From positions 3,968,001 through 4,032,000 of the forward strand of contig NZ_CP059067.1 of the NCBI RefSeq assembly GCF_017795745.1: DNA of 64,000 nucleotides, given 5' to 3'. This document shows positions 15,755 to 50,546 of the stretch, one piece after another. A model generated the notes under the pieces. It made no database searches, had not been told where the DNA came from, and saw only the letters and a program-made list of their open reading frames with translations. Every line of letters starts with the position of its first letter. The stretch's first letter is position 1. This DNA comes from Rhizobacter sp. AJA081-3 (GTDB taxonomy: Bacteria; Pseudomonadota; Gammaproteobacteria; Burkholderiales; Burkholderiaceae_C). The position numbers and the translations under genes were made by a program.

Positions 15755-15764
15755 GGCTTGCCTC

Positions 15765-18700: not shown

Positions 18701-21700
18701 AGACGGCAAGCGCCGTCTTCACCACGTCAACTATGCGCACGCAGCCAGCGATCTTTGCGTCGCCCATCTTCTGCGCGAAGTATTCAACCGGGTCGGACAG
18801 CCCTTTCATGAACTTGGCAACCGGGTCCGAGTCGCTTGCCCCCGCTAGGGACTTGAAGTGCGCGCGAGCCTGGTTCGTTACGTCGCCTTTCATCGCGCCG
18901 CCGATGGGACCGTGCTCACGCGCGATCGCCATTACTTGCGTAGTGGGCGCAAAGGGACCGCCGCTGCGAGTGGTGTCGCCGCCGAAACCGAGCTCCGCAC
19001 CCCCGTCGACAAACCGCAGGAACACCTGACCCTTGTTGTCAGCGGGGTCGAAGCCGCGCAGTACGAACGTCCGGTGGTAGGCAACTATGTTGCGCTGCGA
19101 CGGGTTGCCGGACAGTTGTGACAGTAGCGACATTGAAACCCGCGCTTGGGACATGCGCGGGTAGAACGGGGGCTGCTTCAGTCGCTCACGCTCGCGGTTG
19201 AACTTCAGGTCGTCTACGCTCACCGGGCCCTCGTCTTCGATCACCGGGTCTGCTGCGGGAAGGGCGACGCCCAGCACGAAATCGAGCGTTCCGTGGCGGC
19301 TGTTGCGGCTGCCCGCCCCGGGCAGGAATTCGATTTCGCCCCGAGTGAGCGTTGCCAGGGCCATGCTTGACTTGTAGGCGCCACTGCGCATCTCCTCCTT
19401 GCGCGCGCTTACCTCCACCACGTATGCGTCAAGCACTGCTTTGAGCGTTTCCGGTGTATGCGCAACCTGGTTGTCGACAAACACGAGTGGCACCCGAAAC
19501 TCCGTGGCGCCACCCTTAACAGTGAACTCGAAGAGTTGGCCGGCCGCGCAACTCTGGGTCGGTGCTGCCGCGGGCACTGCAGGCCAGAACGCTTGCCGTC
19601 CCGAGCGCGGCAACACTTCTGTCTTCTCGGGTGGAAGCAGCGGTGGTGTCTCGGGCGGGTCGACCCGCAGCTTTCGCAGGAACCAATCGCGCGCCTCGAA
19701 GGGGTGACCGTAAGCCGGAAAGCTGAACTCGCCGGGTTCTACGCGGATCGAGAAGCGCTGCACGAGGACAGCGCGGTAACTCTCCGAGTTAGTCCGGCCG
19801 GACCGCTTGAACTCGCGGGTCGTGCGCTTTATGAGCACAGCCGGAATGCCGAGCGGCAACAGGAAGCCCTTGTACTCGACCGTCACCGAGGTGTCGCGGC
19901 GCAGCCGGGCTTGGTGCTCCCATTTGCTAATCGTGAGCGCGCCGGGGCGTTCGGAATCTGGCACTGCCGCTGGGGGATCCCAATTGCCCAGGAAATCGAA
20001 GCTTGCCCCGAACGGGGTGAGGAGGAGGAGGCTGGCGTGAAAGGGTTGTGAGACGAACTCACCTACCTCCGCCTTCGGCGCGGCGATGACTGATCCGCTG
20101 CCAGCGAGTGCCTTCTCGCCGAAGCTGCCTGTAAGCCCAACAAGATTGTGGCGGTCGTGGGCGTCCAGAGATGCGCGAAACTTGGAGGGGTCCTTCGAAG
20201 AGTATGGCTTTGGAGGCTGAAAGAAGTTCTCTCTGTTGAAGTCATCGGAGGCGAGCGCGCGCATCGGCAGCGCCCCGCCATGGACGTCACCCGCACGTAC
20301 ATGCCAAAGGTTGTTCGGCACTCCCCACGACCGCGTGGGTTCCGGCAGCGCCCGCCAACGCGACGGGGTGGGTTTGTTCCACACGGGCTTGAGCAGCGTG
20401 ACCGACAGCCGATACGGCAACTCGAGCCCGGTGACACCCTCCTCTTCCAAACTCTGGCCGGTGTCTTCTCGTAGACGCTCGGCGATGTCACGCTCGTGTA
20501 CGGCGTCCGTCGTCACTGCACGGAGCGAGAGCGATTCGTAGAAGCGCACCGGCGCACCACTCTCCGGTTCGGCGCTCCATCCGAGGAGCGAAGCCATCGA
20601 CAACGGCAACGCCGCGCCGCGGTCGAACGCTACCGTGAAGACGAGCCGGCTCGGACCCGACTCCACCGCCTGCGGCTCGAAATTCCGGAAGTAGTCCGGG
20701 TCGTCGTTGTCCTTGTATTCCTCTGCTCTCTGCTCGATCGCCTTCACCGCCGCGGGATCCGCCGTGCGAACGTCCTCATAGGCGTCGCTCAACTGTTGGC
20801 CAAACTCCTGCGTTAGGTACCGGAGAAACCATTTTGGCAGCGGCGCGCCAATGACCTTCAAACTCCCGAGAAATAGCCAGTCAGCGGAGCGAGTGCCATC
20901 CTTCTGGACGACCTGCGCGAACTGTGAATGAAGCTTGTCGCGAAACCGTTGGAGAACTTGGCGCACCGCGTTGTCGACTGGCGTCGACCAGTCCTTGAGC
21001 ATTGCGACGTCCGCGATCACCGCCAGCACGCGCGCCTCCTTCGACCGCATCGGCGCGCAGATGACCTCTTCGCTGGCCTTGCTGTTGCCCGACGCTGATG
21101 CCGAGTAGATGGACTCTTCCTGCAGGTGCTGGGAGGCTAGTTCGAACGATAGCTCGCCCGACGTACCCGAATCCGGCACGAGGACCCAGCCGCGCAAGCG
21201 CGGCTCGAGCTTGAGTCCACGAAACCGGAAGATTGCCGCGAACCCGTCGATCGTGCGGCGCACGATCAATCTGTATCCCTTGAGCGGAATCGCCCGCAGC
21301 CTGACGATCGTCGAGTCCCACCGAACCAGGTCCTCGGAAGCCGCGTCCTCTGCCTTCTCAAACCAGGCGACGTCAGCGCCCACAAAAGGCACGACGAAGC
21401 GGTGCGCGAAGACACCGTTGACGACCGCACGCGCGACCTCGGCGCCCTGGTATGCCTGCACGCATGCACCCGGCCCAGCGCTCAGCTCGTAGCTCGCGTT
21501 CGCGACATCCACCCAGTGGGTACCGAAGGGCACTGCGTCGAGGTTCTTGCACGCGCCGCGGCCGAAACTTTCGTCGATCCTCAATGCCGAGACAGGGAGC
21601 GGCGCGCCGCCCGCCTGCGCGACGAGCACGCCGGCCGCGCTACTCGAACGCCAGGAGGCCATCGCATGCATTGCCCGCGGGTTCGCCGCATGACGCGTGA

Positions 21701-22592
21701 ACTCGGCAATCAGCTGCACGTCGGGTTCGAACTGCGGCTGCAACCCAGCTACCGGCGGCACAAGCGCGACAAGCGCATCGCTTCTAAAGACAAGCTGGGC
21801 GCGCCGCAGCACACCGAGTGCTGCGCCAGCCGGCTCGAGCGAGCCCCGCGAGTCTGCCTCAGGTGCGACGACCACCGTGACGTGAGAGCAGGGCGCGGCG
21901 CCTTGCCTCAGCCGGATAGTGGCAACGTCCTTGCCGTGGAAGTCGAGCCGCCAGTCGCTGCGCAGTACTAACGTTGCGGTTCCGGCCAGGAGCACCTCCA
22001 AGTCCCTCGTGCCGCCATCCGTCGAATCGATCTTCACCGCGCAGCTGATGGACTCGCCTCTTTCGAGCCAGGTGAGAAGATCGCCGCGCCCGCGCGCGCG
22101 CAAGTGCGGGAACTCGATGTCAAATGTCCACAGGCGGCGCACCTTCCTCGCGGCCATCTTGAAGTCGCAACGCAGGCGAGTGCCGGTCAACAGTGCGCCG
22201 GTAAGCGCCAGCTCGAAGCTATCGTCGGAAGTGGAATGTAAGAGCTTCGGCCGACCATCGAACCAAGCCGTGTCGACGCGCCACGCGGGCTCGCCGTCTA
22301 AGCGAAGGCAGAAACTGTGGTCATCGCCGCTGAACGAGACAGCGCGCGCGCGATTCGACGTATGAGATGCCGCTGCGGCACTACCGACACCAGTGACGCC
22401 CGCGAGAAGGACGCGGCGGCGACTTAGCCGCACGTTGCGGAAAGGCGAGCCGGCGACGGCGTCTCCCTCCGCGAGTCCATTTGCGGCGGCGTCATTCTCT
22501 TCTCCCGCAACTCCACCCCGCGGCGAATCGAGATCCTTCACGGCACGCCTCCGATTCGCGGCGAACATAGTCCAAAGCAGTGAACTACGCAT
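15765..22592 (-). CDS. Giant protein (2275 aa) with Tat-type signal, coiled-coil middle and beta-rich C-terminus
   Basis: The ATG at 22592 opens a long N-region followed by a twin-arginine motif and hydrophobic stretch (RLSRRRVLLAGVTGVGSAAA, residues 55-74), which looks like a Tat export signal. A later internal start before this motif is possible, since no good ribosome site precedes 22592. Residues 80-1200 are beta-rich with many Arg-Phe-Val strands. Residues about 1250-1850 are Leu/Ala-rich helices with heptad character (for example LQRLQNDLPGLLGDARDQVE), probably coiled coil. Residues 1900-2200 are again beta-rich with repeated Gly-aromatic strands (FEYGGVTGVEFGGGLARGT). The protein would be exported folded, perhaps with a cofactor or partner. 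No homologous family is recognised. It heads the operon with the 1522-aa protein and the protease homologue. Confidence 0.8.
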   Translation of the reverse strand: MRSSLLWTMFAANRRRAVKDLDSPRGGVAGEENDAAANGLAEGDAVAGSPFRNVRLSRRRVLLAGVTGVGSAAAASHTSNRARAVSFSGDDHSFCLRLDGEPAWRVDTAWFDGRPKLLHSTSDDSFELALTGALLTGTRLRCDFKMAARKVRRLWTFDIEFPHLRARGRGDLLTWLERGESISCAVKIDSTDGGTRDLEVLLAGTATLVLRSDWRLDFHGKDVATIRLRQGAAPCSHVTVVVAPEADSRGSLEPAGAALGVLRRAQLVFRSDALVALVPPVAGLQPQFEPDVQLIAEFTRHAANPRAMHAMASWRSSSAAGVLVAQAGGAPLPVSALRIDESFGRGACKNLDAVPFGTHWVDVANASYELSAGPGACVQAYQGAEVARAVVNGVFAHRFVVPFVGADVAWFEKAEDAASEDLVRWDSTIVRLRAIPLKGYRLIVRRTIDGFAAIFRFRGLKLEPRLRGWVLVPDSGTSGELSFELASQHLQEESIYSASASGNSKASEEVICAPMRSKEARVLAVIADVAMLKDWSTPVDNAVRQVLQRFRDKLHSQFAQVVQKDGTRSADWLFLGSLKVIGAPLPKWFLRYLTQEFGQQLSDAYEDVRTADPAAVKAIEQRAEEYKDNDDPDYFRNFEPQAVESGPSRLVFTVAFDRGAALPLSMASLLGWSAEPESGAPVRFYESLSLRAVTTDAVHERDIAERLREDTGQSLEEEGVTGLELPYRLSVTLLKPVWNKPTPSRWRALPEPTRSWGVPNNLWHVRAGDVHGGALPMRALASDDFNRENFFQPPKPYSSKDPSKFRASLDAHDRHNLVGLTGSFGEKALAGSGSVIAAPKAEVGEFVSQPFHASLLLLTPFGASFDFLGNWDPPAAVPDSERPGALTISKWEHQARLRRDTSVTVEYKGFLLPLGIPAVLIKRTTREFKRSGRTNSESYRAVLVQRFSIRVEPGEFSFPAYGHPFEARDWFLRKLRVDPPETPPLLPPEKTEVLPRSGRQAFWPAVPAAAPTQSCAAGQLFEFTVKGGATEFRVPLVFVDNQVAHTPETLKAVLDAYVVEVSARKEEMRSGAYKSSMALATLTRGEIEFLPGAGSRNSRHGTLDFVLGVALPAADPVIEDEGPVSVDDLKFNRERERLKQPPFYPRMSQARVSMSLLSQLSGNPSQRNIVAYHRTFVLRGFDPADNKGQVFLRFVDGGAELGFGGDTTRSGGPFAPTTQVMAIAREHGPIGGAMKGDVTNQARAHFKSLAGASDSDPVAKFMKGLSDPVEYFAQKMGDAKIAGCVRIVDVVKTALAVSGTQVPKLNQQEVFDDLVELLRPVLQDASSGPATVLKALAETLEKSGLPASALEKLRPSINAARRSIDVARAGLGVSPTDAAAVGAAVSGAYSHLKQFLDDARNLAENPVALLPPSVAQAFAAARKVLSDLQTLRTALDDLPRLFWSEAMAALTAEVARLESFVVSQPEYRALQDVVTSLRATLNALERAAMQAALDRAAAVMGELLQPMLALQRWAELAAEVATNAALKEVIPLVAAAFEANDQLEDIRSSVDATLDELSRTDGVVDRLNTQLSAAADATKRRAIEDALQSVVQLREGLITFAAVAEQRVKLEQASPLNVVRIARSYLEAYDVLLRTGAELHRHLRDLNVLVDFQRGLLDALKKTDLGAQLQRLQNDLPGLLGDARDQVEEAIATALRFAVEVRNASDNDFKALLANLRQAVMEELSVRLNAAASALLPQAAELMSHMEQVQARLDAAVVRLATPLDKLRGLLGQVSDIDLSSVEPYLSEDFGARLKRLAGGIRDFGDAWPSTGKKNGPQAMRAAYVASALFQEVSTLVAYLADMIGGGNLGGLVDVRGIAEKVLTEIGVPSKLRISYDWRCDIDEFPRGGGAVFRPVPGRGSGGGGSPQLTIASRNEVSLRGNGTSGSVTGRLDAFSLHLFGSAPFLILDFHPITFQAGSNQPMKFDVRLENVRFGQALKFVNELAALLNADSGFYVQLLQGRPGIEVGYRFNKDIIQLAAMTLQNVSFSVAVLLPFDNSATRFKVAVGTRQKPILASVGIYGGGFFAALTMRADTMELIEASFEYGGVTGVEFGGGLARGTCKITAGVYLALGVRDEITGFFCASGALTIASIFRAGGELLVSLRRSGNSMAGLAVYTFSFSIGLVDYSYSVSVSYTKGGGGNMTESADGQRPQQPAGTTADAINRLAVARRNLDATRDTASRARGDGSAPDTADHVADFIEAASATGRLHPGLAEGSAWLAYVGAFADLDEVAR

Positions 22593-28916: not shown

Positions 28917-31055
28917 ATGCGGGTCGGCTCTCCCGAAGAAGCGCGAGATGCCCGGCGTCCAATCGCAATCCCCCTGCGGACGCTGAAGTCGCTGCTGGCT
29001 GAGGCTGCAGGCGCGGCAACCTGGGGCCAGCTGCGCCTGCCCGACGCCATGACCGAGGCCGACGCCGAGGACGCGGATCACCGCGCAAAGCTGGATGCAG
29101 CGTGGGAGATGATCGAGCCGCTCGTTGCCGCGTTTTGCGACGAGGCGAACCTTGCCAGATCCAGGTTCAGGCAACTCATTCAGCTTCGCGCCGAGCAACT
29201 GGGGGCATCGCAGACGACTCTGCGCCGACTTGTACAGCGCTACTACTATTTCGGCGGACTGCGTATCGCACTCCTGCCACTGCCCAGGGGACGCAAGCCC
29301 CAGTACCGGTACACCCGAGAGGACGGGACCTCGGCTGATTCGGTCCGTACGAGACCCATGCGTCGGCGGGGCCGACAGTCAGCGCTGGCGGCCAAGTACG
29401 GCGAGAACCACTTCCTGATCGGCGAGGACGACGTCGCAGACATGCTGGCCGCTGTGAAGCGGCTGCTGAGGAGTGGGCCGACCTACATCTCCGATGCACA
29501 CGAGGAGTACCTGAGAAAGGACTTCGCCAAGCGGCACCCGGAGTTGCACAAGGCGTATACCGAGGGCGAGCACGCAGAGCCTGTGAGCCTCAGGCAGTTT
29601 CGGTACCACGTGAATCTGAACCTCGTACTCAACAACAACCTGAGCAGCAACCTGCGCCTGCAGCGCGATGCCAGAGACAAGTCCGGCTCCCTGCACTCGA
29701 TCGGGCCGGGCGATCTCTATGAAATCGACGCAACGCTTGGCCGAGTGCACCTGGTGTCATCGACGCAGCCACATGTGGTTCTTGGCACGCCGACCATCTA
29801 CCTGGTCATCGACCGTTGGAGTCGATTCATCGTGGCGGTCTACATCTCGCTGCGCGCACCGGCGTGGGAAGAGTTGCGCCAGGCACTCCTGGTCGCCTTC
29901 ACCTCGCGCAAGCAGAGGTTTCGCAGGCTGAAGGTACTCGTCGACGACAAGACATGGCCGCGCGCCCCGATCCCCGCCGCCCTGTGTGCCGACCGCGGGT
30001 CCGATTTCATGAGCGAGGCAACGCGCAACGCCGTGGTCTCGAACCTGCGCATCGAACTGACCCCGTTGCCTCCGGGATGCCCGGACGGCAAAGCCATCAT
30101 CGAGCGCTTCATTCGCGAGCTGAAGAAGCGGATGAAGTCGTCCGGCGCCAAAGGCGTCTATGCGGAACGCCCGATGACCCGCGAGGCCAAGATTGCCGCC
30201 AAGCGAGCGGCCAAGGGCGCAGCGCATTCGCTCGCGGACATGTACCGTCTCCTGGTACAGATCGTCGTCGATCGGAACAACGCCGCCCACAGTCAACTGC
30301 GAAAGTACCGTGAGCTGACTCGCGCAGGGATTGCACCTACCCCTCAGAACGCTTTCAAGTGGGGTCTGGCGAACATCACTGGCCACCGTTCTCCCCCGTT
30401 GACGGAGCAAGACTACTGGCGCTTGCTGCTCAGCCAGGACACGGCTTCGGCAGCCCGCAGCGGATTGAAGTACCGCGGACGAGACTATGTGCCCGATGGC
30501 GAAGCTGCCGAATCGCTGCTCAGGCAATTGCCAGCCAAGCGAAAGTCCGTGCAGATCCGGCTCGACAAGCTCGATCCGGGCGAGATCTTCGTTGTCAGCG
30601 CCGGGCTGCCCCGCTGGGCAAAGTTCGTTCTCAAGGAAACGAACGCTCGCAACCTCGGGACCGTGACACTGGAAGAAGAAGAGCTCATGGAAGAGGCATC
30701 CAATCGCCTCTGGGTCGAGGCCGAGCACGACAGCCGGCGCGACCGAGTGAAGGCGGATCGTCCGGTTCCGACCAAGCGCCCGCAGGGACGCACCGGCCCT
30801 TCGTCTTCTTCGCCCCATGAGCTCACTGAACGCGAGCGACGGGCCGAGCGCGACCGTGAGACGTCTTCGATCAAGGCAGCACTTCGTCCGAAGGGAGTGG
30901 GCTCCAGCGCTATCTCTGGGCAGCAAAGTCCGGCCCGAAAGACCGAAAGATCCTCGGTACCTGACGGTAGTTCTGACTGGCGCAAAGACGATGAAAGGCG
31001 CAGGATGGAGATGGTTGAAGCAATTCGGCGCAAGCGCAGGCCGGCCAAGGAATAG
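28917..31055 (+). CDS. tnsB: Tn7/Tn5053-type DDE transposase (TnsB/TniA)
   Basis: This is a 712-aa protein if started at the ATG at 28917. The integrase-core triad is visible: Asp271 in LYEIDATLG, Asp359 in CADRGSDF and Glu396 in KAIIERF, spaced as in Mu/TnsB transposases. The N-terminal 230 residues are helix-turn-helix-rich. A basic C-terminal tail follows the beta-barrel. Coding character continues in frame upstream of 28917 (PPKYFRITHVFEKNAYW), back to about 28848, but offers no ATG, GTG or TTG, so the true start seems lost or non-standard. The next genes are TnsC-like and TniQ-like. It catalyses strand transfer; with no TnsA in view, replicative (cointegrate) transposition is expected. 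Confidence 0.92.
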   Translation: MRVGSPEEARDARRPIAIPLRTLKSLLAEAAGAATWGQLRLPDAMTEADAEDADHRAKLDAAWEMIEPLVAAFCDEANLARSRFRQLIQLRAEQLGASQTTLRRLVQRYYYFGGLRIALLPLPRGRKPQYRYTREDGTSADSVRTRPMRRRGRQSALAAKYGENHFLIGEDDVADMLAAVKRLLRSGPTYISDAHEEYLRKDFAKRHPELHKAYTEGEHAEPVSLRQFRYHVNLNLVLNNNLSSNLRLQRDARDKSGSLHSIGPGDLYEIDATLGRVHLVSSTQPHVVLGTPTIYLVIDRWSRFIVAVYISLRAPAWEELRQALLVAFTSRKQRFRRLKVLVDDKTWPRAPIPAALCADRGSDFMSEATRNAVVSNLRIELTPLPPGCPDGKAIIERFIRELKKRMKSSGAKGVYAERPMTREAKIAAKRAAKGAAHSLADMYRLLVQIVVDRNNAAHSQLRKYRELTRAGIAPTPQNAFKWGLANITGHRSPPLTEQDYWRLLLSQDTASAARSGLKYRGRDYVPDGEAAESLLRQLPAKRKSVQIRLDKLDPGEIFVVSAGLPRWAKFVLKETNARNLGTVTLEEEELMEEASNRLWVEAEHDSRRDRVKADRPVPTKRPQGRTGPSSSSPHELTERERRAERDRETSSIKAALRPKGVGSSAISGQQSPARKTERSSVPDGSSDWRKDDERRRMEMVEAIRRKRRPAKE

Positions 31056-31102
31056 TCAAAGTCATTAGTTATCCTTGTCCGAACGGCGTTGCCGGGCGAA
31101 AC

Positions 31103-32494
31103 ATGATCGAAATCGAGCCAGACGAGTTCACTGCGGCGAACTACCAGGCCACTGGAGTCAGCCGGTTCAAAGGCAATCCATTCATCGAAGCCTTGCCGCA
31201 ACTCGAGGACCGCAAGCTGGACTTCCTTGAAGCGCTGGCGCACTACCCGGAAATGCCCACCGCCGCCACCCGCAAGTCGGGCGAGATGATTCGCCTGATG
31301 GAGATGAACCAGATCAACGATATCGTGGTTCCTTTCGCGGAGTACGAGCAGACTGCCGTTGCGATGGCGAACATGCTGCGCGATTCGTATGTCGCCCGCC
31401 ATCCCGACTCGCCCAGCGACCGACGGCGACGGCATGCCCTTGCGACCCAGGGAAGGAGCCAGATGCCCTTCCCCTCCGATTGGCGTACCTCGGGTTCGGG
31501 TCACCTGCTCATCGCGATCAGCGGGATGGGAAAGACCACGCTGGCGAAGGCATTCCTGCTGCGGTATCAGCAGCTCATTGTTCACCAGAGCTACTGTGGC
31601 AAGGCACTGAGGTGCGTTCAGGTTCCGCACCTGTCGCTGCGAGTTCCCCACGACGGGACTCTGCGAGGCTTGTGCCTGCAGTTCTTCGATGTGGTCGATC
31701 GCTTGCTCGGGACGGAGTTCAGGAAGGAGGCGCTGGCACTGCGGTCCATTGCGCCGATGGCACTGCAGATGACCAAGGTTGCCAGCGCGCTTTCGCTTGG
31801 ATTGCTGGTGATCGACGAGCTTCAGAACCTGCGGTACGCCATGGGAAAGAACGCCGAGTACGTGCTAAACCTGATCAGCGACCTCATCGAGCATGCCGGC
31901 ACCAGCGTGCTGACCATCGCCACACCGGCAGTGCAGCCGGTCATCGAAGGAAGCATCCGCAATGGCCGAAAGATGGCCTCGGCGGGACAGACGGTCCTGC
32001 GTCCAATGACGCTTGGCGACCCCCAATGGAAGCTGTTCTGCGAGACCTACTGGGACTATACGTACACCAAGCGCAAGCCGCGGCTGTCCAAGGAAATCCT
32101 CAAGGCGTGGCATCGCGTCAGCGCGGGCAATTCAGCCTTTGCGGCCACGGCTTTCGGGCTTGCACAGCGACACGCTATCGGCACGACGGAGTGCATCGAC
32201 GAGGCAGCCTTCTTTCGTGTGGCCGAGAAGGAAATGGCCTTCCTGCAGCCCGCGATCGAGGCGCTGAACAGCGGCAATCCGTCGAAGCTTCGCCAGTTCG
32301 ATGACCTGGTCTTCAGCGAACGATTCCGCGCCTTGAGGTCCCAACTCGGGGTAGCGACCCCGCCAATCAACGAACCGGTTGATGACGAGTTCGACGATAT
32401 CCCAGAAGAAGAAGCACCCGAGCCGGCCGCACGAAGCAGGCAGACCAGGCCAAGCGGAAATCTCAAGACGGAGGAACCCCGCGAGCTCAACTAG
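31103..32494 (+). CDS. tnsC: Transposition AAA+ ATPase regulator (TnsC/TniB)
   Basis: This is a 463-aa protein from the ATG at 31103. Walker A is ISGMGKTTLAKAF (Lys144) and Walker B is LGLLVIDELQNL (Asp238, Glu239), followed by the sensor stretch SVLTIATPAV. TnsC-family proteins form ATP-dependent filaments on target DNA and link the target selector to the transposase. The last 60 residues are an acidic, Pro-rich tail (DDEFDDIPEEEAPEPAARS). The gene begins 47 bases after tnsB, in the same direction, and 249 bases before the TniQ gene. Confidence 0.92.
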   Translation: MIEIEPDEFTAANYQATGVSRFKGNPFIEALPQLEDRKLDFLEALAHYPEMPTAATRKSGEMIRLMEMNQINDIVVPFAEYEQTAVAMANMLRDSYVARHPDSPSDRRRRHALATQGRSQMPFPSDWRTSGSGHLLIAISGMGKTTLAKAFLLRYQQLIVHQSYCGKALRCVQVPHLSLRVPHDGTLRGLCLQFFDVVDRLLGTEFRKEALALRSIAPMALQMTKVASALSLGLLVIDELQNLRYAMGKNAEYVLNLISDLIEHAGTSVLTIATPAVQPVIEGSIRNGRKMASAGQTVLRPMTLGDPQWKLFCETYWDYTYTKRKPRLSKEILKAWHRVSAGNSAFAATAFGLAQRHAIGTTECIDEAAFFRVAEKEMAFLQPAIEALNSGNPSKLRQFDDLVFSERFRALRSQLGVATPPINEPVDDEFDDIPEEEAPEPAARSRQTRPSGNLKTEEPRELN

Positions 32495-32743
32495 CCCAGG
32501 CAAGCGCGGCAATCACATCGGGCGGCTCTCGCGGCGGGCCGCCCCAGGGTCGGGCGGCACCGAGGACACCGAGGACTCCAAGGGTTGGCCAAGGGAGAAA
32601 GGCAGGAGTCTGGGTGCGATCCAGCCAGCCGGCTCCCAAAGCTCTGAAGCGCAACTTTCAGCCAGTTGCATACAGCGCTGGATGAATCGACACATGTCGA
32701 TCACCCTACTTTCGGTCGTTCATGCGGCGAGTAGGGTTTGGGC

Positions 32744-34711
32744 ATGCCCTGGCCAAACTCGCCGCCGCTGCTTTCTTCTCCTGCGCTGGAGCCCGATGAG
32801 TTGTTCTCGAGCTGGCTGGCCAGGTGCGCGGCGTCCAATGTGCTGGATTCCGAACACGCAGTGCTCAGGTCCGTCTACGGCCTGTCGGGCCGCTTCCTGC
32901 CGAGGCTGAACGAGTTCGCGCTGAAGCTGGGGGCCTTGTGCGGGTACCTCGGCCCCTGGTCGCCCGGCCTCGACTCGGACGACTGGATCTTGCGCGCCAC
33001 CGTCTACCCCTACTTCCGGCCGTTCATTTCCTGCGCAACTGACGCCCGCGCACGCGCGATCATGGCCAGCGGCAGTGGATCCGGACTCAAGACTCTTCTG
33101 GGGTTAGTGGCTAATCGCTTTGGGGCATCGACGCGTCCTCGCTTGTGCCCGCTGTGTGCCAAGGAGGACCTCCAGCGTATTGGTTTCCCATATCTGCGGC
33201 GCTCCCACCATCTTGCGGCCGTCACTCGCTGCGCCATTCACGGATCACGTCTGCAGGAATTGCCGGCTTCCAGCGAGGCATCAAATCTGTTTGCCTGGCT
33301 GTGCAGGAATCCCGAGGCGGCCCCCAAGAAGCGCTCACGCAACGCCTTCGACCAGAGCCAGTCCATGGACAGCCTGAGCGCGCGCCAGGAGCACTGGTTC
33401 GCCCGCATTTCTTTGGCGCTGTTGACGGCCGGACTCGCACCACAGGATCCGTCGGCGCGTGGCCGCGCCTACGGCGCCGCGGCCAGGCTGCAAGGACACG
33501 GGATCCGCAATGGCCGCGTCGACCATCGATCCTTGGCTCAAGGGATCCGCGCCTACTACCGGGAATTCTCGTTCCTGAGTTGCAAAGAACGGCTCTTGCA
33601 GCCCTCAAGCAACCCATCTGCGTGGGTTCGGAGCTTGATCGCAAGACCTGATCGAACCGCTCATCCCATCTGCCACATCCTGGCCATCGGCTACCTGTTC
33701 GATAGCGTCGAGAGCTTTGCACAGGCCGTGCAAGATCAGTCGCGTGCTTCCTCGAGCATCCATGTCGTCGCATCGCAAGAGGCCGAGCGGCCAACCTCGC
33801 CAATCGCTTCGCCGGGTGCTTCGCGACTTACATCGACACTGCCCGCGCCGAGACAACGCGAAGTCGATGCACCCAGCCAGCATGGAGTGCTACTCGACGC
33901 TTCAGTGTCCTGCCGGGAGGCCGCACGCCTTCTCGCCGTCTCGATCGACAAGGTTGCGTGCGCCAGACTCGCAGCGGGCATCCCGGTCGCGCAACGGCCA
34001 CAGAAGATCAACTCGACACTCGCAGCCAGCTTGCTCGACCGGATGGCCCAAGGCCTCTCCCTGCCCGAGATCGCCGAGTTCAACCAGGTTTCGCTGTCCT
34101 CGCTGTATCGGCTGCTGGAATCCCATCCGCAAGCTGCGGCCACGAGAGCACACGCAACGTTCGAGAGTGATCTGCACATGCATCGAGACGCATGGGAAGA
34201 CGCGGTCCGACGCTCGGCAGGACGCGGGTCGAAGCTTGCTCGAGCGCTTGCACCGGCGGCGTATGCTTGGCTCTATCGACACGACCCGACCTTTGTTCGC
34301 TCGCACAGGCCGGCACCAAGGCCGTCACGCTCGCCAGTCGTCGATTGGAATCTCCGTGACTCCATGCTCGTCCGCAGACTTGCGCTTTTGGCGCAGTCGG
34401 CACCTGAGGTTTCGCTGGACCGGCGCCGAACCGCTACGTTCTGGATGAACTGCCTGGGCTCCGGAGCACCCCATCCTGCGCGCCGGGAACGCTTCCCACA
34501 GACTATGAACTTGGTTCGTGAACTGGCGGAAAGCGACTTCAACTTTCGCCTCAGGCGCGCGAGGGGCGCGGTAGCCGAATTGAGCCGCAGGGGGCAGCCT
34601 CTCGAGTATTGGCGCGTGCATCGGGCGGCCAGCCTCCGAGATCTGCCGAAGGCGGCATACCTCAAGGCGCTCTCGCAAGTCGCGAATCGCGGGCACTCGG
34701 CGCGAAGTTGA
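32744..34711 (+). CDS. tniQ: TniQ/TnsD-family target selector
   Basis: This is a 655-aa protein. The ATG at 32744 with an AGGG ribosome site starts MPWPNSPPLLSSPALEPDEL, then FSSWLARCAA, the standard TniQ opening (LPDELLSSWLxR). A zinc-binding set follows: CPLCAKEDLQRIGFPYLRR, then HHLAAVTRCAIHGSRL. The second half has two helix-turn-helix-like segments (VSCREAARLLAVSIDKVACA and GLSLPEIAEFNQVSLSSLYR) and an Arg-rich C-terminus. It is longer than Tn5053 TniQ (about 400 aa) and in the range of TnsD, which binds a specific chromosomal site. It probably directs insertion to one site through the HTH domains. The actual attachment site is not identified. Confidence 0.88.
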   Translation: MPWPNSPPLLSSPALEPDELFSSWLARCAASNVLDSEHAVLRSVYGLSGRFLPRLNEFALKLGALCGYLGPWSPGLDSDDWILRATVYPYFRPFISCATDARARAIMASGSGSGLKTLLGLVANRFGASTRPRLCPLCAKEDLQRIGFPYLRRSHHLAAVTRCAIHGSRLQELPASSEASNLFAWLCRNPEAAPKKRSRNAFDQSQSMDSLSARQEHWFARISLALLTAGLAPQDPSARGRAYGAAARLQGHGIRNGRVDHRSLAQGIRAYYREFSFLSCKERLLQPSSNPSAWVRSLIARPDRTAHPICHILAIGYLFDSVESFAQAVQDQSRASSSIHVVASQEAERPTSPIASPGASRLTSTLPAPRQREVDAPSQHGVLLDASVSCREAARLLAVSIDKVACARLAAGIPVAQRPQKINSTLAASLLDRMAQGLSLPEIAEFNQVSLSSLYRLLESHPQAAATRAHATFESDLHMHRDAWEDAVRRSAGRGSKLARALAPAAYAWLYRHDPTFVRSHRPAPRPSRSPVVDWNLRDSMLVRRLALLAQSAPEVSLDRRRTATFWMNCLGSGAPHPARRERFPQTMNLVRELAESDFNFRLRRARGAVAELSRRGQPLEYWRVHRAASLRDLPKAAYLKALSQVANRGHSARS

Positions 34712-43875: not shown

Positions 43876-44394
43876 CTACGTGTAGACGCCGTACTCGAGC
43901 CGCATGAGGAACTCCTCTACGACCTCCGTGCCCGGAACGGTCCGAAGCATGTCGATAGGGCGCTGCACGTCGAGACCCAAAGCGGGACGGATCATCCAAC
44001 GCTGTGCCTCTTCCGCACCGCCGAGGATGTGCTCCGCCAAGGCCAGCACTTCCGCAAACCTCCACGTCGCACTCGCCAACTGGGTCGGCATGTTTCGCTG
44101 AGGGGTGTTCTCTTGGCGCTGGAGCGTACGTGCGCTGATCCCCAAAACGGCTCCAACATCGGAAGCTCTCAGCGCCGGAAACGTGCGCATCAAGTGCAGC
44201 AAAGAATCAAAGGGGACGCCCTTTAGGATGGCGTTGTGGACTTCTTGAGGACTGCAGGGCTGGGGGCCGAATCGCTTTGCGCCGCCCAGAATCAGCCAGG
44301 CAGCACGGTACGTGTCCGCCTTGAGGTCGGCCGGTTCGCGGACGGCGGCTGGCGGCAATCGCTTGGCGCCAACGGTGGAACCTGAGTGCAGCAA
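43876..44394 (-). CDS. Xre/MbcA/ParS-type antitoxin (DUF2384), no toxin partner
   Basis: This is a 172-aa protein with a TTG start at 44394, as no ATG or GTG fits. Residues 65-100 hold a helix-turn-helix-like stretch (RASDVGAVLGISARTLQRQE). The C-terminal part (FAEVLALAEHILGG, then LGLDVQRPIDMLRT and LMRLEYGVYT) is the toxin-binding DUF2384 domain of the RES/Xre toxin-antitoxin family. A RES toxin gene normally follows directly. Here the next 20 bases lead into convergent yedK, so the toxin is missing. It could be a relic or act as an antitoxin in trans. Confidence 0.82.
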   Translation of the reverse strand: MLHSGSTVGAKRLPPAAVREPADLKADTYRAAWLILGGAKRFGPQPCSPQEVHNAILKGVPFDSLLHLMRTFPALRASDVGAVLGISARTLQRQENTPQRNMPTQLASATWRFAEVLALAEHILGGAEEAQRWMIRPALGLDVQRPIDMLRTVPGTEVVEEFLMRLEYGVYT

Positions 44395-45115
44395 TCTCGG
44401 TCAGCGGTAGTTCGTATGCGCACAAGCGTCGTCCAGATCTGGACACCTTGTCAAGCCAGCATTGGGTGCCAGCGGACCCTGAGAGTGGGATCCGACCAAT
44501 AGCCAAGTGCGAGAACTTCGGCAGATGGCAGCCATTGAGACAGACATCTGCCGGCCATTTAACTTGGCATTCCTCTGTTTGGACCTCCAGCCGCTGCGCT
44601 TCGGAACTGACCAGCAATTTGACTCTGGCCGATGACGCTGCCCTCAGGCTGCAGGCTATCCGCGAGTGACAGCTTCCACTGGATACGAACGGAGACTGTC
44701 GACCCCAAGCAGCCGCTCGACGCTCTGATCGGTTTGCCCAATTCCTGTCGCTGCAGTCGTTCCGCCGACATCGGCCGGATCCGGATGAGTGTCGAGTCCA
44801 CGCCGCGTGATGAAGGTGTGATTTGCACGGCTTCCGGCAGTTGAGCCTTTCCTGGCGGAATGCGACCGCTCCTCCTGCTCGTTGAAGCGAGAGAGACGCC
44901 GACGTTCGACCTACGGCGTAGGCATTCTGGAGTGCCAACGATGTGGTCGAACTCAACATGTGCTGGTCGCACTGCAAAGGGCAAGCGTGGCACTGGGCTG
45001 CTGGTCTGGTTCGAGCGGACCGGGTCGGTCGCGATAATGCTGGTGGTGAAATACACCAGAGGCAGTAGCGAGAACCTGCCGCCGGCGTCCTTGAAGCGGC
45101 AGAAGGAGCACTTCG
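44395..45115. other. Long non-coding stretch, probable gene debris
   Basis: About 720 bases hold several overlapping frames on both strands, none with a ribosome site or a recognised full domain. A minus-strand piece near 44950 reads AHVEFDHIVG, faintly like an HNH-nuclease core, and could be a relic. I see no insertion-sequence ends. Confidence 0.4.
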
Positions 45116-45394
45116 ATGGCTGAAGCGATCAAGTTTCTGGTTTGCGGCTTGGAACGAGGGCTCGTCAAAGGCAAGGCAAGGCAGGCGGGTAAGCCGCAAT
45201 CGCCCGAGAGTGTCGAGCCTACGCGCGCCGGTCGGCCCCTTGGCTTGAGGACTAAGCACAGCAAGCAACAGGTGAAACTGCGGCTCGAACCGGGTGTGCC
45301 TGAGGCTTCGCGCGCTTGCGGCGACCGCTGGCAGACGCGCAGAAAACACATACTGCAGGCGGCGTTGCGGTTGGCGGGGCAGTTGCCTGGCTGA
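45116..45394 (+). CDS. Small basic protein upstream of the STAND nuclease gene
   Basis: This is a 92-aa protein. The ATG at 45116 has an excellent ribosome site (GAAGGAG, 9 bases upstream). The stop (45392-45394) is one base before the ATG of the 1386-aa gene, a spacing that implies coupling. The sequence is rich in Lys, Arg and Gln (LVKGKARQAGKPQSPE, then RTKHSKQQVKLRL) and ends LQAALRLAGQLPG. No domain is recognised. It could be a nucleic-acid-binding partner, a regulator or a translational leader. Confidence 0.5.
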   Translation: MAEAIKFLVCGLERGLVKGKARQAGKPQSPESVEPTRAGRPLGLRTKHSKQQVKLRLEPGVPEASRACGDRWQTRRKHILQAALRLAGQLPG

Positions 45395-45395
45395 C

Positions 45396-48300
45396 ATGGT
45401 CGATCCAGTGCCCGACGCCGTCGCTATTCTGCTCGACGCCTATGCGCAGGCCCAGCCTCGCCGGGCGTCTGGCGGCATCCATGCCATGGCCGGATTTGCC
45501 TATCAGGCGGAGGTAGCAATCTACCGGGCCGTCACCTGTCTTGTCGCATCGAATGATTTTGGCGAAGCCGGGCGGGTTTTTGTCGAAGCCTTGTCGGATG
45601 TGGCCATTCGCAATGACAACGGGTCGTTGGTCCTGCTCCAGGTCAAGCGCACGCTGACGGCCGCGGCACTCGACAGTGCGGCAGAAGAAATGGCTGCCAT
45701 CGAAGCGGTAGACGCCACACTGGCCCAGCCGGTGAGACCGTCCTACGGCGTGGTGTGCCAGCACCGAAGTATCGAGCTCGACTGGGCGCGATTGCCCGGC
45801 TCATCACTGCACGTCGGACTGGTGAATCGCTTGCGGCTCGAAGGCCGTCTTCAGTTGCCCCAGCAACTTCCCAACCCCCGTTGGCAGGCGCTTGCCGCGT
45901 TGTGGGACTGCCATTCAGACCCATTTGGATTCCTCCATTTTGCCTTGGACCGCATCGTGCATCGGCGGGTCGATGTGGGCGATGCCGCGGCCTGCTGGGA
46001 GGTACTGGCCGAGCGTTACCAGCAAGGCCGCGTGCAGGCAGCCGACTGCGGGCACCACCTCGATGTCGCCGATGTGCTCATAGCAGAACAGGCTGCACAG
46101 CACCTGGAAGTGGGCAAGCGCGTCACCTGGGACCGCTGGCGTCGCGGCCAGTACATGCCCCGGCCCGTGTTGGCCGACGATGCCGCTCGCCGCGCCCTGG
46201 CGCTGCGCGAACAGGCCGTGCAGTCGTCCGCGGCCGAACTGAGCGTGTACTGGCTGGCCGGCCGCTCCGGGGCAGGTAAGAGCGTGGTGTTGCTCAACTG
46301 CGCGAGCGCCCTGGTGCAGGCGGGGCACAGCGTGCTTTGGCTCAAGCCGGAGGAGTTAGAGCCCGCACTGGCGCGGATTGCCCGCGGCGAAGGCTGGGCC
46401 ACGCCCGACTTTCTGGCCGTAGACGACATCTTCGACCCGGATGCGCGGGACAGGATCGACCTCGGCCGCATCAGCATTCTGGTCGACGAACAGGGTGCAC
46501 GCGATTGGCCGGTACTGCTGACCTGCGGGCCCAGCGAATTTTCAGACGACTTTGCGGAGCAGAGTCGCTTCCAAGGCTTCTCAGTTCATGCGCATGAGGT
46601 GCCGTTGCTAGACCGCGCGGAAACCGAGAGATTCGTGGTATGGGCAGCGCCGCACCTAGGCACCAGCGATCCGACTGTGGCGGCCGATCGCTGGGCCGGC
46701 CTGGCCTTGTCGCAGGGTGCCCAGGGGCAGGGCTTGATCGTCTCGGTGGCTACCGAGCTCGCCAGCGGCGACATGCGACACTTTGGGCAGCGTTTTGCAG
46801 ACCGCTTGCGCCACCATGGCGACCCTTTCGCGCTGCGCATACGGCTGTGCCTGGCCGTCAACCGCCTGTACCTGCGTGCGCCGGCCGCTTGGCTAAGCAG
46901 CGAAGACCGGGCGCACCTAGAGGACATCAACCGCGACGGCGACTTTGCGTTGGAAGCGGCCGAGGCCGGGCAGGACTGGTTACGTCTGACGCACCCGCAT
47001 TTGAGCGATGCGATCTACCCGCATTTGCTGCAACCGGCACGACCGCGCCTGTTTGCCGACGACCTGGGCGATGCCTTCCAGCGAGCCCTTGCGGGTGGGC
47101 ACGATGCACTGGCCCAGCGTCTGTTGTTGACCTTCTCCGCCAACGGGGGGCACGCCCGCGCGCAGCGCATGCAAGCGGTCGAGGAGCCACGGCTGGCCGA
47201 GCGCTGTGTCCAGGCCTGGCGTGCACACCCTGCTGGCGGCGATATCCGGCTGCAGGCCGGCATGCGCGTCAGCCTCGCCTGCTGGCCGGCAGCCCTCCCT
47301 TGGTTGGACAGGCCGATCGACAAACTGATCGCCGACGCCTTGCGTGGCATCGACCAGGCGGAGGCCCAGTTCGCTGGTCTGGGCTGGTGGCCGACTTGGT
47401 GGAACCGCCTCTGGTCCTGTCACACTGACCACACGGCACTGGTCGATTGGGCGGAGTCCCGGTTGGCCGGCAGCGCGGGTGCGCCCGAGGCGGCCTGGTC
47501 CCACGTCTGGGAAGCGGTATGGCGCGGCACGCGGGGCGAACGTCGCGAGTCCATGGCGATTGCCGCCCGCCAGTGGCTCAGTTCCCAAGGTCATAGAGCC
47601 GACTGGCACTTCGTCTGGAAGGCGCTGCGCGGCGCCTCCGATGCTGATCGGCCGTTGCTAGTGAATCTGCTGGCCACTGCGCTGCCGCACAAGGACGGCG
47701 GTCACTGGCCCCACATCTGGCAGGAGGCGCTACTTGGCCCCCCGGAAGGGCAGGATCTGGCCGGCCTGATCGCGCAGGGCTGCGACTGGCTGGGCGGGCG
47801 GGAAGACAAGGACCAGTGGGCGTACGTCTGGGAAGCGCTGCTGGCGCGGACGCAGACCTTGCCCGAGGGCTGGACGGAACTGAGCCTTGTCAAGCTGGGC
47901 TGCGACTGGCTGGGCGGGCGGGAAGACAAGGACCAGTGGGGGTACGTCTGGCAAGCGCTGCTGGCGCGGACGCAGACCTTGCCCGAGGGCTGGACGGAAC
48001 TGAGCCTTGTCGAGCTGGGCTGCGACTGGCTGGACGGGCGGGAAGACAAGGACCAGTGGGGGTACGTCTGGCAAGCGCTGCTGACGCGGACGCAGACCTT
48101 GCCCGAGGGCTGGACGGAACTGAGCCTTGTCAAGCTGGGCTGCGACTGGCTGGGCGGGCGGGAAGACAAGGACCAGTGGGGGTACGTCTGGGAAGCGCTG
48201 CTGGCGCGGACGCAGACCTTGCCCGAGGGCTGGACGGAACTGAGCCTTGTCAAGCAGGGCTGCGACTGGCTGGGCGGGCGGGAAGACAAGGACCAGTGGG

Positions 48301-49556
48301 CGTACGTCTGGGAAGCGCTGCTGGCGCGGACGCAGACCTTGCCCGAGGGCTGGACGGAACTGAGCCTTGTCAAGCTGGGCTGCGACTGGCTGGGCGGGCG
48401 GGAAGACAAGAACCAGTGGGCGTACGTCTGGGAGGCGCTGCTGGCGCGGACGCAGACCTTGCCCGAGGGCTGGACGGAACTGAGCCTTGTCAAGCAGGGC
48501 TGCGACTGGCTGGGCGGGCGGGAAGACAAGAACCAGTGGGCGTACGTCTGGGAAGCGCTGCTGGCGCGGGCGCATACCTTGCCCGAGGGCTGGGGCGAGC
48601 AGAGACTGCTCAGTGTTGGGCTCATGAATGCCGAGGGTGCCGCGAATGCAGACTTAGTTTTGCCTATCCTCAAGGCCGTCCTGCTCAGTCGTGGGCAACT
48701 TGAAGTTGCCGAGCAACGACGTGCAGATACGCTTGTCGTCCGCTGGCTACCTCAGCTTGCTGAGCTCGCGCCAGGACCTGCCAGCCATGCGCTTGAGGCG
48801 ATGCTCGACGCTCGCATGACGGCCCTACCTGGCGTCCATGATGCTGTGCGAGCATGGTGTACCGGCCATCGGAGCCATAGATCTTGGCCATTGTTGCTGG
48901 TTAAGGCGCTGACCGCTTGGCCGGAGGATCAGGCGCTTCTTGACTTGGCCGCTGAGTTGGCACTGATCGTTGAAGCACATCCAAACGCAGGCTGGCTCCA
49001 CAAGGCAGAACGTATCCTGGATCCAGTCGAGGTTGGGGACTCGCCACCGGCGCTGAGGCAATTGCTTCTGTGCATTCGCGGCCGCAAAGAAAGTCCGGCC
49101 TGGCAGGAGGTCAACCGCTGGATCGACAGCGGGCAAGAGGTGACCGCTACCGTTGTGGCTGTTGGGCGCCAAGTCGTGGTGGAGCTTGCAGGAGGCATGT
49201 TTGCGGTGCTGGCCCGACCGGGCAGCAGCCTGCGCGTCCGAGATCCAGTACGCGTGGTTGTGGCGAGCGCCAATCGAGTCATCGATCGTGTCTATGTGCG
49301 TCGGGCAGTGACTCGAGCAGAACTGCCTTGCATAGGCGAAGTGATCGAGTGCACGATCAACGGCTTCGCGCAGTACGGCGTTTTCGTGCGTGTTAACTCG
49401 GTGTCTGGTTTGATCTTGGCCCGTGAACTTCCTGCCGATCCGCAGGCGTGGGAGCAACTGCTCCCGATCAGATCGCGGTGGATGTTGCGCATCACCAATC
49501 ACACGGCAAGGGGATTCAATGGGGCGATCGTCGATCCGCCATGGGCGCTTAGTTGA
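45396..49556 (+). CDS. STAND-like NTPase with Cap4-type nuclease, tandem-repeat solenoid and S1 domain (candidate antiphage sensor)
   Basis: This is a 1386-aa protein; the ATG at 45396 follows the small gene by one base. Residues 25-110 resemble the Cap4/DUF4297 nuclease of the PD-(D/E)xK class: GFAYQAEVAIYRAV, then VEALSDVAIRN and LLQVKRTL, giving Asp and QxK active-site positions. Residues 285-470 are a P-loop ATPase with Walker A YWLAGRSGAGKSVVLL and Walker B FLAVDDIFD. From about 690 a helical solenoid begins with divergent W-x-VW-x-A repeats. It passes into seven nearly identical 40-residue repeats (795-1074, GCDWLGGREDKDQWAYVWEA). Residues 1310-1350 (GEVIECTINGFAQYGVFVRV) are an S1 OB-fold. 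This matches the effector-ATPase-sensor layout of Avs-type antiviral STAND proteins, except for the S1 end. Confidence 0.85.
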   Translation: MVDPVPDAVAILLDAYAQAQPRRASGGIHAMAGFAYQAEVAIYRAVTCLVASNDFGEAGRVFVEALSDVAIRNDNGSLVLLQVKRTLTAAALDSAAEEMAAIEAVDATLAQPVRPSYGVVCQHRSIELDWARLPGSSLHVGLVNRLRLEGRLQLPQQLPNPRWQALAALWDCHSDPFGFLHFALDRIVHRRVDVGDAAACWEVLAERYQQGRVQAADCGHHLDVADVLIAEQAAQHLEVGKRVTWDRWRRGQYMPRPVLADDAARRALALREQAVQSSAAELSVYWLAGRSGAGKSVVLLNCASALVQAGHSVLWLKPEELEPALARIARGEGWATPDFLAVDDIFDPDARDRIDLGRISILVDEQGARDWPVLLTCGPSEFSDDFAEQSRFQGFSVHAHEVPLLDRAETERFVVWAAPHLGTSDPTVAADRWAGLALSQGAQGQGLIVSVATELASGDMRHFGQRFADRLRHHGDPFALRIRLCLAVNRLYLRAPAAWLSSEDRAHLEDINRDGDFALEAAEAGQDWLRLTHPHLSDAIYPHLLQPARPRLFADDLGDAFQRALAGGHDALAQRLLLTFSANGGHARAQRMQAVEEPRLAERCVQAWRAHPAGGDIRLQAGMRVSLACWPAALPWLDRPIDKLIADALRGIDQAEAQFAGLGWWPTWWNRLWSCHTDHTALVDWAESRLAGSAGAPEAAWSHVWEAVWRGTRGERRESMAIAARQWLSSQGHRADWHFVWKALRGASDADRPLLVNLLATALPHKDGGHWPHIWQEALLGPPEGQDLAGLIAQGCDWLGGREDKDQWAYVWEALLARTQTLPEGWTELSLVKLGCDWLGGREDKDQWGYVWQALLARTQTLPEGWTELSLVELGCDWLDGREDKDQWGYVWQALLTRTQTLPEGWTELSLVKLGCDWLGGREDKDQWGYVWEALLARTQTLPEGWTELSLVKQGCDWLGGREDKDQWAYVWEALLARTQTLPEGWTELSLVKLGCDWLGGREDKNQWAYVWEALLARTQTLPEGWTELSLVKQGCDWLGGREDKNQWAYVWEALLARAHTLPEGWGEQRLLSVGLMNAEGAANADLVLPILKAVLLSRGQLEVAEQRRADTLVVRWLPQLAELAPGPASHALEAMLDARMTALPGVHDAVRAWCTGHRSHRSWPLLLVKALTAWPEDQALLDLAAELALIVEAHPNAGWLHKAERILDPVEVGDSPPALRQLLLCIRGRKESPAWQEVNRWIDSGQEVTATVVAVGRQVVVELAGGMFAVLARPGSSLRVRDPVRVVVASANRVIDRVYVRRAVTRAELPCIGEVIECTINGFAQYGVFVRVNSVSGLILARELPADPQAWEQLLPIRSRWMLRITNHTARGFNGAIVDPPWALS
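47778..48617 (+). repeat. Seven in-frame 120-bp tandem repeats inside the STAND gene
   Basis: Each unit encodes 40 residues starting GCDWLGGREDK and ending LSLVK. Units 1-6 differ from one another at only eight positions; unit 7 degenerates at its end. Seven of the eight variable positions change the amino acid (Ala/Gly, Glu/Gln, Ala/Thr, Lys/Glu, Leu/Gln, Gly/Asp, Asp/Asn) and one is silent (GAA/GAG). Older, strongly diverged copies of the same W-VW-A pattern lie just upstream (about 47480-47770). Confidence 0.97.
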
Positions 49557-49922: not shown

Positions 49923-50546
49923 ATGGGATCCAACGTCAACGCTGTTCATCGCGAGCCGTGGAACAAGGGCAAGATCGTCGGTCAGAAAGCGCCGTTCAAG
50001 CTCAAGGACATCTGGGCTCTTCGTGTTCGTCTCCAGATGGAAAGCCGGGTGCGCGAGCTTGCCCTCTTCAACCTCGGGATCGACAGCAAGCTGCGCGGCT
50101 GCGACCTCGTCAGCCTCAAGGTCCGGGATATCTGCCACGGTGACCAGGTGGCGACACGCGCCGTGGTGATGCAGCACAAGACTCAGCGACCGGTGCAGTT
50201 CGAAATCACGCCGGCAACCCGCGATGCTGTTCAGAAGTGGATCAAGCAGGCCGGGCTGAAGGCCGAAGACTTCGTGTTCCCGAGCCGCATCCACGACTCA
50301 CCACATCTGGGAACGAGGCAGTACGCTCGAATCCTTGGTGGCTGGGTTGAGGAGCTCGGCCTCGATCCCGCCGAGTACGGCACGCACTCGATGCGCCGCA
50401 CCAAGGCCACATTGATCTACCGGCGAACCAAGAACTTGCGGGCCGTGCAACTGCTGCTCGGCCACTCCAAGCTCGAGTCGACGGTGCGGTACCTCGGCAT
50501 CGAGGTCGACGACGCGCTGGAGATCTCTGAGCAGACCGAGATCTGA
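49923..50546 (+). CDS. Compact tyrosine recombinase (phage integrase family)
   Basis: This is a 207-aa protein. The ATG at 49923 has a GGGAG ribosome site. It consists of little more than the catalytic domain. The active-site residues can be placed: Arg in DSKLRGCDLVSLKV, Lys in MQHKTQRPVQFEI, His-x-x-Arg in GTHSMRRTKATL, His in LLLGHSKLES, and the nucleophile Tyr in TVRYLGIEVDD. The N-terminal core-binding domain of larger integrases is mostly missing (about 30 residues). It may mobilise a small element or resolve dimers. It marks the right border of the accessory zone before the catabolic cluster. Confidence 0.9.
   Translation: MGSNVNAVHREPWNKGKIVGQKAPFKLKDIWALRVRLQMESRVRELALFNLGIDSKLRGCDLVSLKVRDICHGDQVATRAVVMQHKTQRPVQFEITPATRDAVQKWIKQAGLKAEDFVFPSRIHDSPHLGTRQYARILGGWVEELGLDPAEYGTHSMRRTKATLIYRRTKNLRAVQLLLGHSKLESTVRYLGIEVDDALEISEQTEI

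Follow-up and report, generated by a model that had tools for sequence, protein, structure and literature searches.

Avs1–4 proteins combine an N-terminal nuclease with a STAND module and C-terminal repeats, and the SAMD9 family, found in animals and bacteria, is characterized by a STAND module, helical repeats and a C-terminal OB (oligonucleotide/oligosaccharide-binding) fold. In fungal NLRs the repeats can be highly conserved among themselves, and the sites under selection lie on their concave surface (PMC4986451). S1-like OB folds and restriction endonucleases are listed among the effectors of other conflict systems, and TERNS3 effectors contain multiple S1 domains with OST-HTH (PMC7159879, PMC8195603). 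Here we analyze a gene in a 64,000-nucleotide stretch of the Rhizobacter sp. AJA081-3 genome (the window) that brings such modules together. The gene (45396..49556, + strand) encodes a 1386-amino-acid protein, which we call P0001, with a layout common to its relatives: a Cap4-like nuclease region, an nSTAND5 module, a helical solenoid, an OB barrel and an S1 domain. Every module is individually known; a literature search, in which subscription papers were thinly covered, returned no Cap4-STAND protein with an S1 tail and no other case of a Cap4-like STAND sensor that combines repeats of high internal conservation with a tail resembling ribosomal protein bS1. We think it reasonably likely that P0001 is a single-gene, NLR-like (STAND) nuclease sensor, probably antiphage, whose tail binds RNA, the ribosome or an S1-attacking phage factor.

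The gene is a single open reading frame (ORF) from the ATG at 45396 to the stop ending at 49556, without an internal stop. An alternative GTG start lies 102 bp 5′ of this ATG, and the annotated start of a relative from Enterobacter aligns with the ATG at 45396; the starts of the remaining relatives in that alignment were our choice. An earlier note, made from the DNA letters, had described one 1386-amino-acid chain with a nuclease-like N terminus, a P-loop, a solenoid and an S1 fold, and this description is confirmed by the ORF, Pfam, PADLOC and AlphaFold2. The protein is a STAND protein with a Cap4-like N terminus, a solenoid and an S1 tail, and its structural neighbors include Avs4, EfAvs5 and SAMD9. 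Although the note's list of parts holds, it overlooked the near-identity of the repeats and a degenerate OB fold that precedes the S1 domain. The source genome, a single 5.4 Mb contig, contains one match to P0001 up to E 10, and searching PDB sequences with full-length P0001 gave no matches.

Because the Pfam and PADLOC scores of P0001 as a single sequence are weak, relatives were brought in. One, on an Enterobacter hormaechei plasmid (1569 amino acids, 35% identity over 76% of the query, E 1e-175), is named S1 RNA-binding domain-containing protein in its public record. Scanning GTDB genomes by pattern with an alignment of three members turned up nine loci. Five of them, from Rubrivivax (L007), Pseudomonas (L008 and L010), Rheinheimera (L011) and Formivibrio (L013), are complete and have the S1 tail. 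L009 is cut by a contig end, L012 breaks frame after 373 amino acids, L014, whose ORF is that of G181, has Fic at its end (Pfam E 2.1e-14), and L015, from Acidobacteriota, ends after the helical repeats. A further relative, G729, has a 1628-amino-acid frame in which neither S1 nor Fic is matched up to E 10. Plasmid proteins of Agrobacterium and Leptolyngbya, more distant, have the N terminus in common with P0001 and carry neither domain. The Fic-ending ORF (L014:9989-14107, equal to L006:7920-12038 on the − strand), which places Fic on a Cap4-STAND-repeat scaffold, may be a two-effector or swapped-sensor chimera.

P0001 belongs to the NLR-like STAND NTPases, with a P-loop that has both Walker motifs. 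Pfam nSTAND_NTPase5 matches the module (residues 214–630; 46035..47285, +) at E 6.9e-8 and 32.9 bits, just below the cutoff of 34; in all six complete S1-tailed relatives the match is above the cutoff, and in L014 and L015 it is below. Walker A (residues 289–296; 46260..46283, +) contains G289, G292, G294, K295 and S296, and Walker B (residues 339–344; 46410..46427, +) ends in D343-D344; all seven residues are invariant in nine of nine aligned members. The best structural matches of the STAND core are human SAMD9 and Avs5, with EfAvs5 among the structural neighbors and Avs4 bound to a phage portal as one Foldseek match. Families absent from the VIA-align rows were not treated as excluded.

The N-terminal region (residues 1–135; 45396..45800, +) resembles Cap4 and LmuA nucleases of the PD-(D/E)xK type. 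Pfam Cap4_nuclease matches P0001 at E 2.6e-5 and 25.0 bits, slightly below the cutoff of 26.2, and PADLOC LmuA matches the N terminus at E 3.3e-6. D68, Q82 and K84, the last two forming a Q-x-K motif, are invariant in nine of nine aligned members and would be the catalytic residues. In the AlphaFold2 model, helices and strands follow the order expected for this nuclease class. Weighing against a nuclease, Pfam Cap4 was reported in none of the eight relatives scanned, and PADLOC LmuA in four of six. The structural matches cover model residues 214–535, and the nuclease fold of residues 1–135 is predicted from sequence and from the helix-strand pattern of the model. As to substrate, the Pfam entry presents Cap4 as cutting dsDNA as an endonuclease, and up to E 1 P0001 matches no RNase family in Pfam.

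The solenoid is built of paired helices (an alpha-alpha solenoid) in the AlphaFold2 model. It includes divergent, W-rich helical repeats (47313..47777, +), seen in the alignment and as predicted helices with a predicted local distance difference test score (pLDDT) mostly of 50–60, and ends in a C-terminal helical cap (48618..49139, +), also predicted by AlphaFold2. Between them lie seven near-identical 40-amino-acid repeats (residues 795–1074; 47778..48617, +), the seventh of which diverges at its end. Run over all 64 kb at score 50, Tandem Repeats Finder (TRF) lists this array and no other, as 6.8 tandem copies of 120 bp with 97% matches. Adjacent units are 0.90–0.97 identical (mean 0.94) when 30 amino acids of each of the seven are compared, and over all 40 amino acids six of the units are 0.90–1.0 identical to the consensus and the seventh 0.78. 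By the measure of high internal conservation applied to fungal proteins (more than 85% between repeats, at least 100 amino acids; PMC4986451), the P0001 array belongs to this class.

How did the units come to be so alike? The P0001 consensus is 50–67% identical to the consensuses of seven relatives (50–77% over all pairs), and this combination of near-identical units within P0001 and consensuses that diverge between relatives argues that the arrays are homogenized gene by gene. Mean adjacent unit identity is 0.94 in P0001, 0.86 in L007, 0.82 in L013, 0.74 in G181, 0.62 in L008, 0.55 in L011, 0.52 in L010 and 0.48 in P0002, and unit counts across these eight members range from 7 to 10. Homogenization is thus strong in P0001 and L007, partial in L013 and G181, and slight in P0002, L008, L010 and L011, which makes it a recurring but not a constant state.

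Variable positions were compared in the four of eight arrays with at least four units at 75% identity, leaving out the seventh P0001 unit and the units below 75% (one of seven in L007, one of nine in L013 and three of seven in G181); L008 and L011 entered the analysis with eight of ten and seven of nine units. Each of these four arrays is variable at positions 15 and 19, an overlap with p 0.002 under a uniform null and a borderline p of 0.049 with core positions excluded. By helical-wheel geometry, the variable positions lie opposite the core, clearly in P0001 and L007 and weakly in L013 and G181 (mean vectors 0.24–0.38, bar a single position). Positive selection on the repeats is not borne out by pN/pS, which is 1.33 in P0001, 0.40 in L007, 0.56 in L013 and 0.33 in G181.

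In the AlphaFold2 model the tail forms two barrels, at about residues 1249–1303 and 1316–1379. The first (49140..49304, +) is a degenerate, bS1-like OB barrel, identified from the model and from a seven-member profile compared with bS1 domains. The second (49341..49532, +) is an S1 domain. Pfam S1 is sub-threshold in P0001 alone (15.2 bits against a cutoff of 22, E 0.029) and above the cutoff in six of six complete S1-tailed relatives, with four copies in the Enterobacter member. A six-member tail profile matches ribosomal protein bS1 at E 3.6e-18; the P0001 tail by itself finds bS1 in the PDB only at E 0.15. Identity to the host's own bS1 is 24–30%, so the tail is not a recent bS1 copy. It is also exchangeable: one relative has Fic in its place, and four have neither S1 nor Fic.

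We considered and set aside the assignment of the tail to exactly domains D2-D3 of bS1, as competing registers score as well or better. BLASTP against the host bS1 placed the top segment on the presumed D2-D3 register in four of seven tails (P0001, L007, L008 and L013), with the L008 tail aligning to bS1 92–222. When domain profiles of equal length are used, D2 (46.4) and D6 (46.3) score alike for the first OB, and in a three-member two-domain profile the D4-D5 register (97.8) exceeds D2-D3 (89.5). Scored tail by tail, the first OB picks D2 in two of seven, D6 in one, and nothing above 3 bits in four. The tail is, judged by its sequence, bS1-like, and we neither assign it to particular bS1 domains nor make a claim on the arginines targeted by phage T4.

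Does the tail contribute to sensing? One possibility, to which we give appreciable but clearly lesser weight, is that the solenoid alone senses, gripping a phage protein as Avs proteins do, with the S1 tail only docking the protein on RNA or ribosomes, or serving as a vestigial anchor. The portal-bound Avs4 among the Foldseek matches, the shared variation at positions 15 and 19, and a tail that is weak in P0001 and that outgroup members built on the same core lack or replace are consistent with this possibility. However, a vestigial tail would be odd in a family whose complete close relatives all carry S1 above the Pfam cutoff, one of them in four copies. It is unlikely, but conceivable, that the tail is instead a second effector or target reader that brings RNA or the ribosome to the nuclease, and that the protein thereby stops translation in the manner of SAMD9. 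In L014 an enzyme (Fic) occupies this position, S1 folds bind RNA according to the Pfam name, and SAMD9 is a tRNase that blocks translation (PMC13245274); however, the dsDNA endonuclease assignment of Cap4 and the lack of an RNase match argue against such a role.

If P0001 is the nuclease sensor that we favor, how might it work? A role in defense is probable, and the steps that we propose, namely autoinhibition, ligand-driven opening, oligomerization and nuclease activation, are modeled on other STAND proteins (PMC7159879, PMC13245274, PMC12331169). At rest, the solenoid and tail would keep the STAND module closed. A ligand on the variable face of the solenoid, on the S1 tail or on both would open it, ATP-bound molecules would then assemble, and the clustered predicted nuclease domains would cut DNA, halting the infection and probably the cell with it. 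The tail's role is the most uncertain part of this scheme. RNA or ribosome binding is the plain reading, and the tail would most likely supply an input tied to nucleic acid or to translation, in the form of RNA, ribosome-bound mRNA or an S1-targeting phage protein, paralleling the role proposed for the OB fold of SAMD9.

A narrower version of this input, which we hold to be rather unlikely, treats the tail as an integrated decoy: part of bS1 would have been captured and joined to the end of an NLR-like nuclease, so that phage proteins that bind or modify S1 would hit the bait and trip the sensor. In plant NLRs, integrated domains serve as exchangeable, baited sensor ends. The replacement of the tail by Fic in a sister protein would fit such an arrangement. 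Phage proteins with suitable activities are described: T4 ModB ADP-ribosylates and RNAylates S1-type OB folds, with sites at R139 and R142 in domain 2 of bS1 (PMC10468400), and T4 RIII binds bS1, mainly at domain 5 (PMC9409239). Our literature search, with its thin coverage of subscription papers, found no bacterial integrated decoy. If P0001 is the defense protein that we propose, it would let one ask directly whether immune sensors of bacteria contain integrated decoys of what phages target.

The family is rare, with a scattered distribution. Matches were found in 1 of 8 genomes scanned from the genus, 1 of 300 from the order, 2 of 369 from the class and 2 of 398 from the phylum; each count includes the source genome, the other two matches are G181 and G729, which are not S1-tailed, and since few candidates were scored per genome these occurrences are lower bounds. 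There were no matches among 50,697 phage records, none of 86 pattern matches in viral contigs was confirmed, an initial genome-contig scan with P0001 alone gave 0 of 18, and E. coli genomes searched with most of the Enterobacter gene gave none.

The surroundings of the gene suggest one route by which it may spread. Downstream, outside the protein, lies a short tyrosine integrase, a possible mobility gene (49923..50546, +; Pfam PF00589, E 2e-17). It is 71% identical to an integrase beside the Formivibrio relative L013, the only match among the loci of ten relatives searched; the P0001 and L013 sensors themselves are just 37% identical over the aligned N-terminal part. A different recombinase adjoins the Enterobacter gene, and neighboring genes appear, from ORF lists read by eye, to differ from locus to locus. 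Judging by these sequences, the shared and differing integrases suggest cargo moved by integrases in some cases, and not a defense island. The plasmid location of one relative and the recombinase genes adjoining three loci would also fit a STAND signaling or self-recognition protein unrelated to phage, acting in cell-cell incompatibility or in competition between plasmids or mobile elements; fungal NLRs, which include some incompatibility genes, typically have homogenized repeats (PMC4986451). We consider such a role improbable, as the nuclease-like effector and the SAMD9 and Avs structural neighbors point to action against invaders.

On the other flank is an Xre/MbcA/ParS-type antitoxin gene (43876-44394, −; Pfam), beside which no partner toxin was recognized by eye, no search having been aimed at one. 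The approximately 1 kb upstream of the sensor gene (44400-45395) contains no convincing gene, and the annotation of the Enterobacter relative has an upstream gap of approximately 0.9 kb. Approximately 10 kb upstream of the sensor gene is a Tn7-like transposition module (28917-34711), in which a 712-amino-acid ORF that Pfam does not match at E 0.01 accompanies a TniB-like ATPase and a TnsD/TniQ protein (TnsD E 1.9e-35). The window also holds very large ORFs of 2275 amino acids (15765-22592; no Pfam match at E 0.01) and 1537 amino acids (11186-15799, −). Across the window there were no Rfam matches and no tRNAs, and scans for promoters (0) and terminators (1) gave fewer than expected by chance.

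Set against known systems, P0001 is Avs-like in part. The earlier note's comparison stands for the layout, an effector, a STAND module and repeats in one chain as in Avs1–4, but is not supported as an assignment to any named Avs type: P0001 matches none of PADLOC's Avs models up to E 10, and the Avs2 matches in two of six relatives scanned (E 0.041 and 0.079) are weak and confined to the P-loop. Near-identical repeats and the S1 tail set P0001 apart from Avs1–4. Avs5 (SIR2-STAND, AVAST type 5) has a SIR2 effector and nSTAND3, and no OB tail is noted in the excerpt describing it (PMC12931631). In its N-terminal region P0001 resembles the Lamassu LmuA and Cap4 nucleases by profile match. Lamassu requires a separate SMC-like partner; Pfam finds no SMC-like LmuB among five neighboring ORFs of the window, both immediate neighbors included. 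With bS1, the tail shares the arrangement of linker helix, OB and S1, whereas the tails of this family have one degenerate OB and one to four S1 copies. Fungal NLRs with highly conserved repeats likewise have near-identical units with few variable positions (PMC4986451), although the P0001 solenoid is another alpha-alpha repeat. If our reading is correct, P0001 is a bacterial NLR-like defense protein that joins a homogenized, fungal-NLR-like repeat array to an S1-like module.

The closest parallel for the tail is SAMD9. The earlier note had called an S1 fold after the sensor nonstandard, a statement that we soften, as SAMD9-family proteins end in tetratricopeptide repeats (TPR) and an OB fold (PMC5445408). 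An OB fold after a solenoid has a precedent because SAMD9 also ends STAND-TPR-OB. At the sequence level, a nine-member profile found no SAMD9 chain up to E 10. Separately, a 1495-amino-acid ORF with an nSTAND5 match (L069:2910-7394, −) has SAMD9 chains as its first PDB matches (E 0.027–0.075, not significant) and, by eye, a kinase-like start and an OB-like end; it may be a bacterial SAMD9-type protein. The P0001 models show the STAND, helical repeat and C-terminal OB succession that defines the SAMD9 family, but the OB types differ. In SAMD9, AlbA_2/tRNase and SIR2-like domains accompany an OB of the cold-shock type, and Walker A lacks its lysine (PMC5445408, PMC13245274), whereas P0001 has a Cap4-like region, S1-type OBs and an intact K295. 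Neither AlbA_2 nor a SIR2-like domain is among the Pfam matches of P0001 up to E 1. If our reading is correct, P0001 would mirror, in bacteria, the STAND-TPR-OB layout of human SAMD9 and would offer a simple genetic system for asking what the C-terminal OB of such sensors does.

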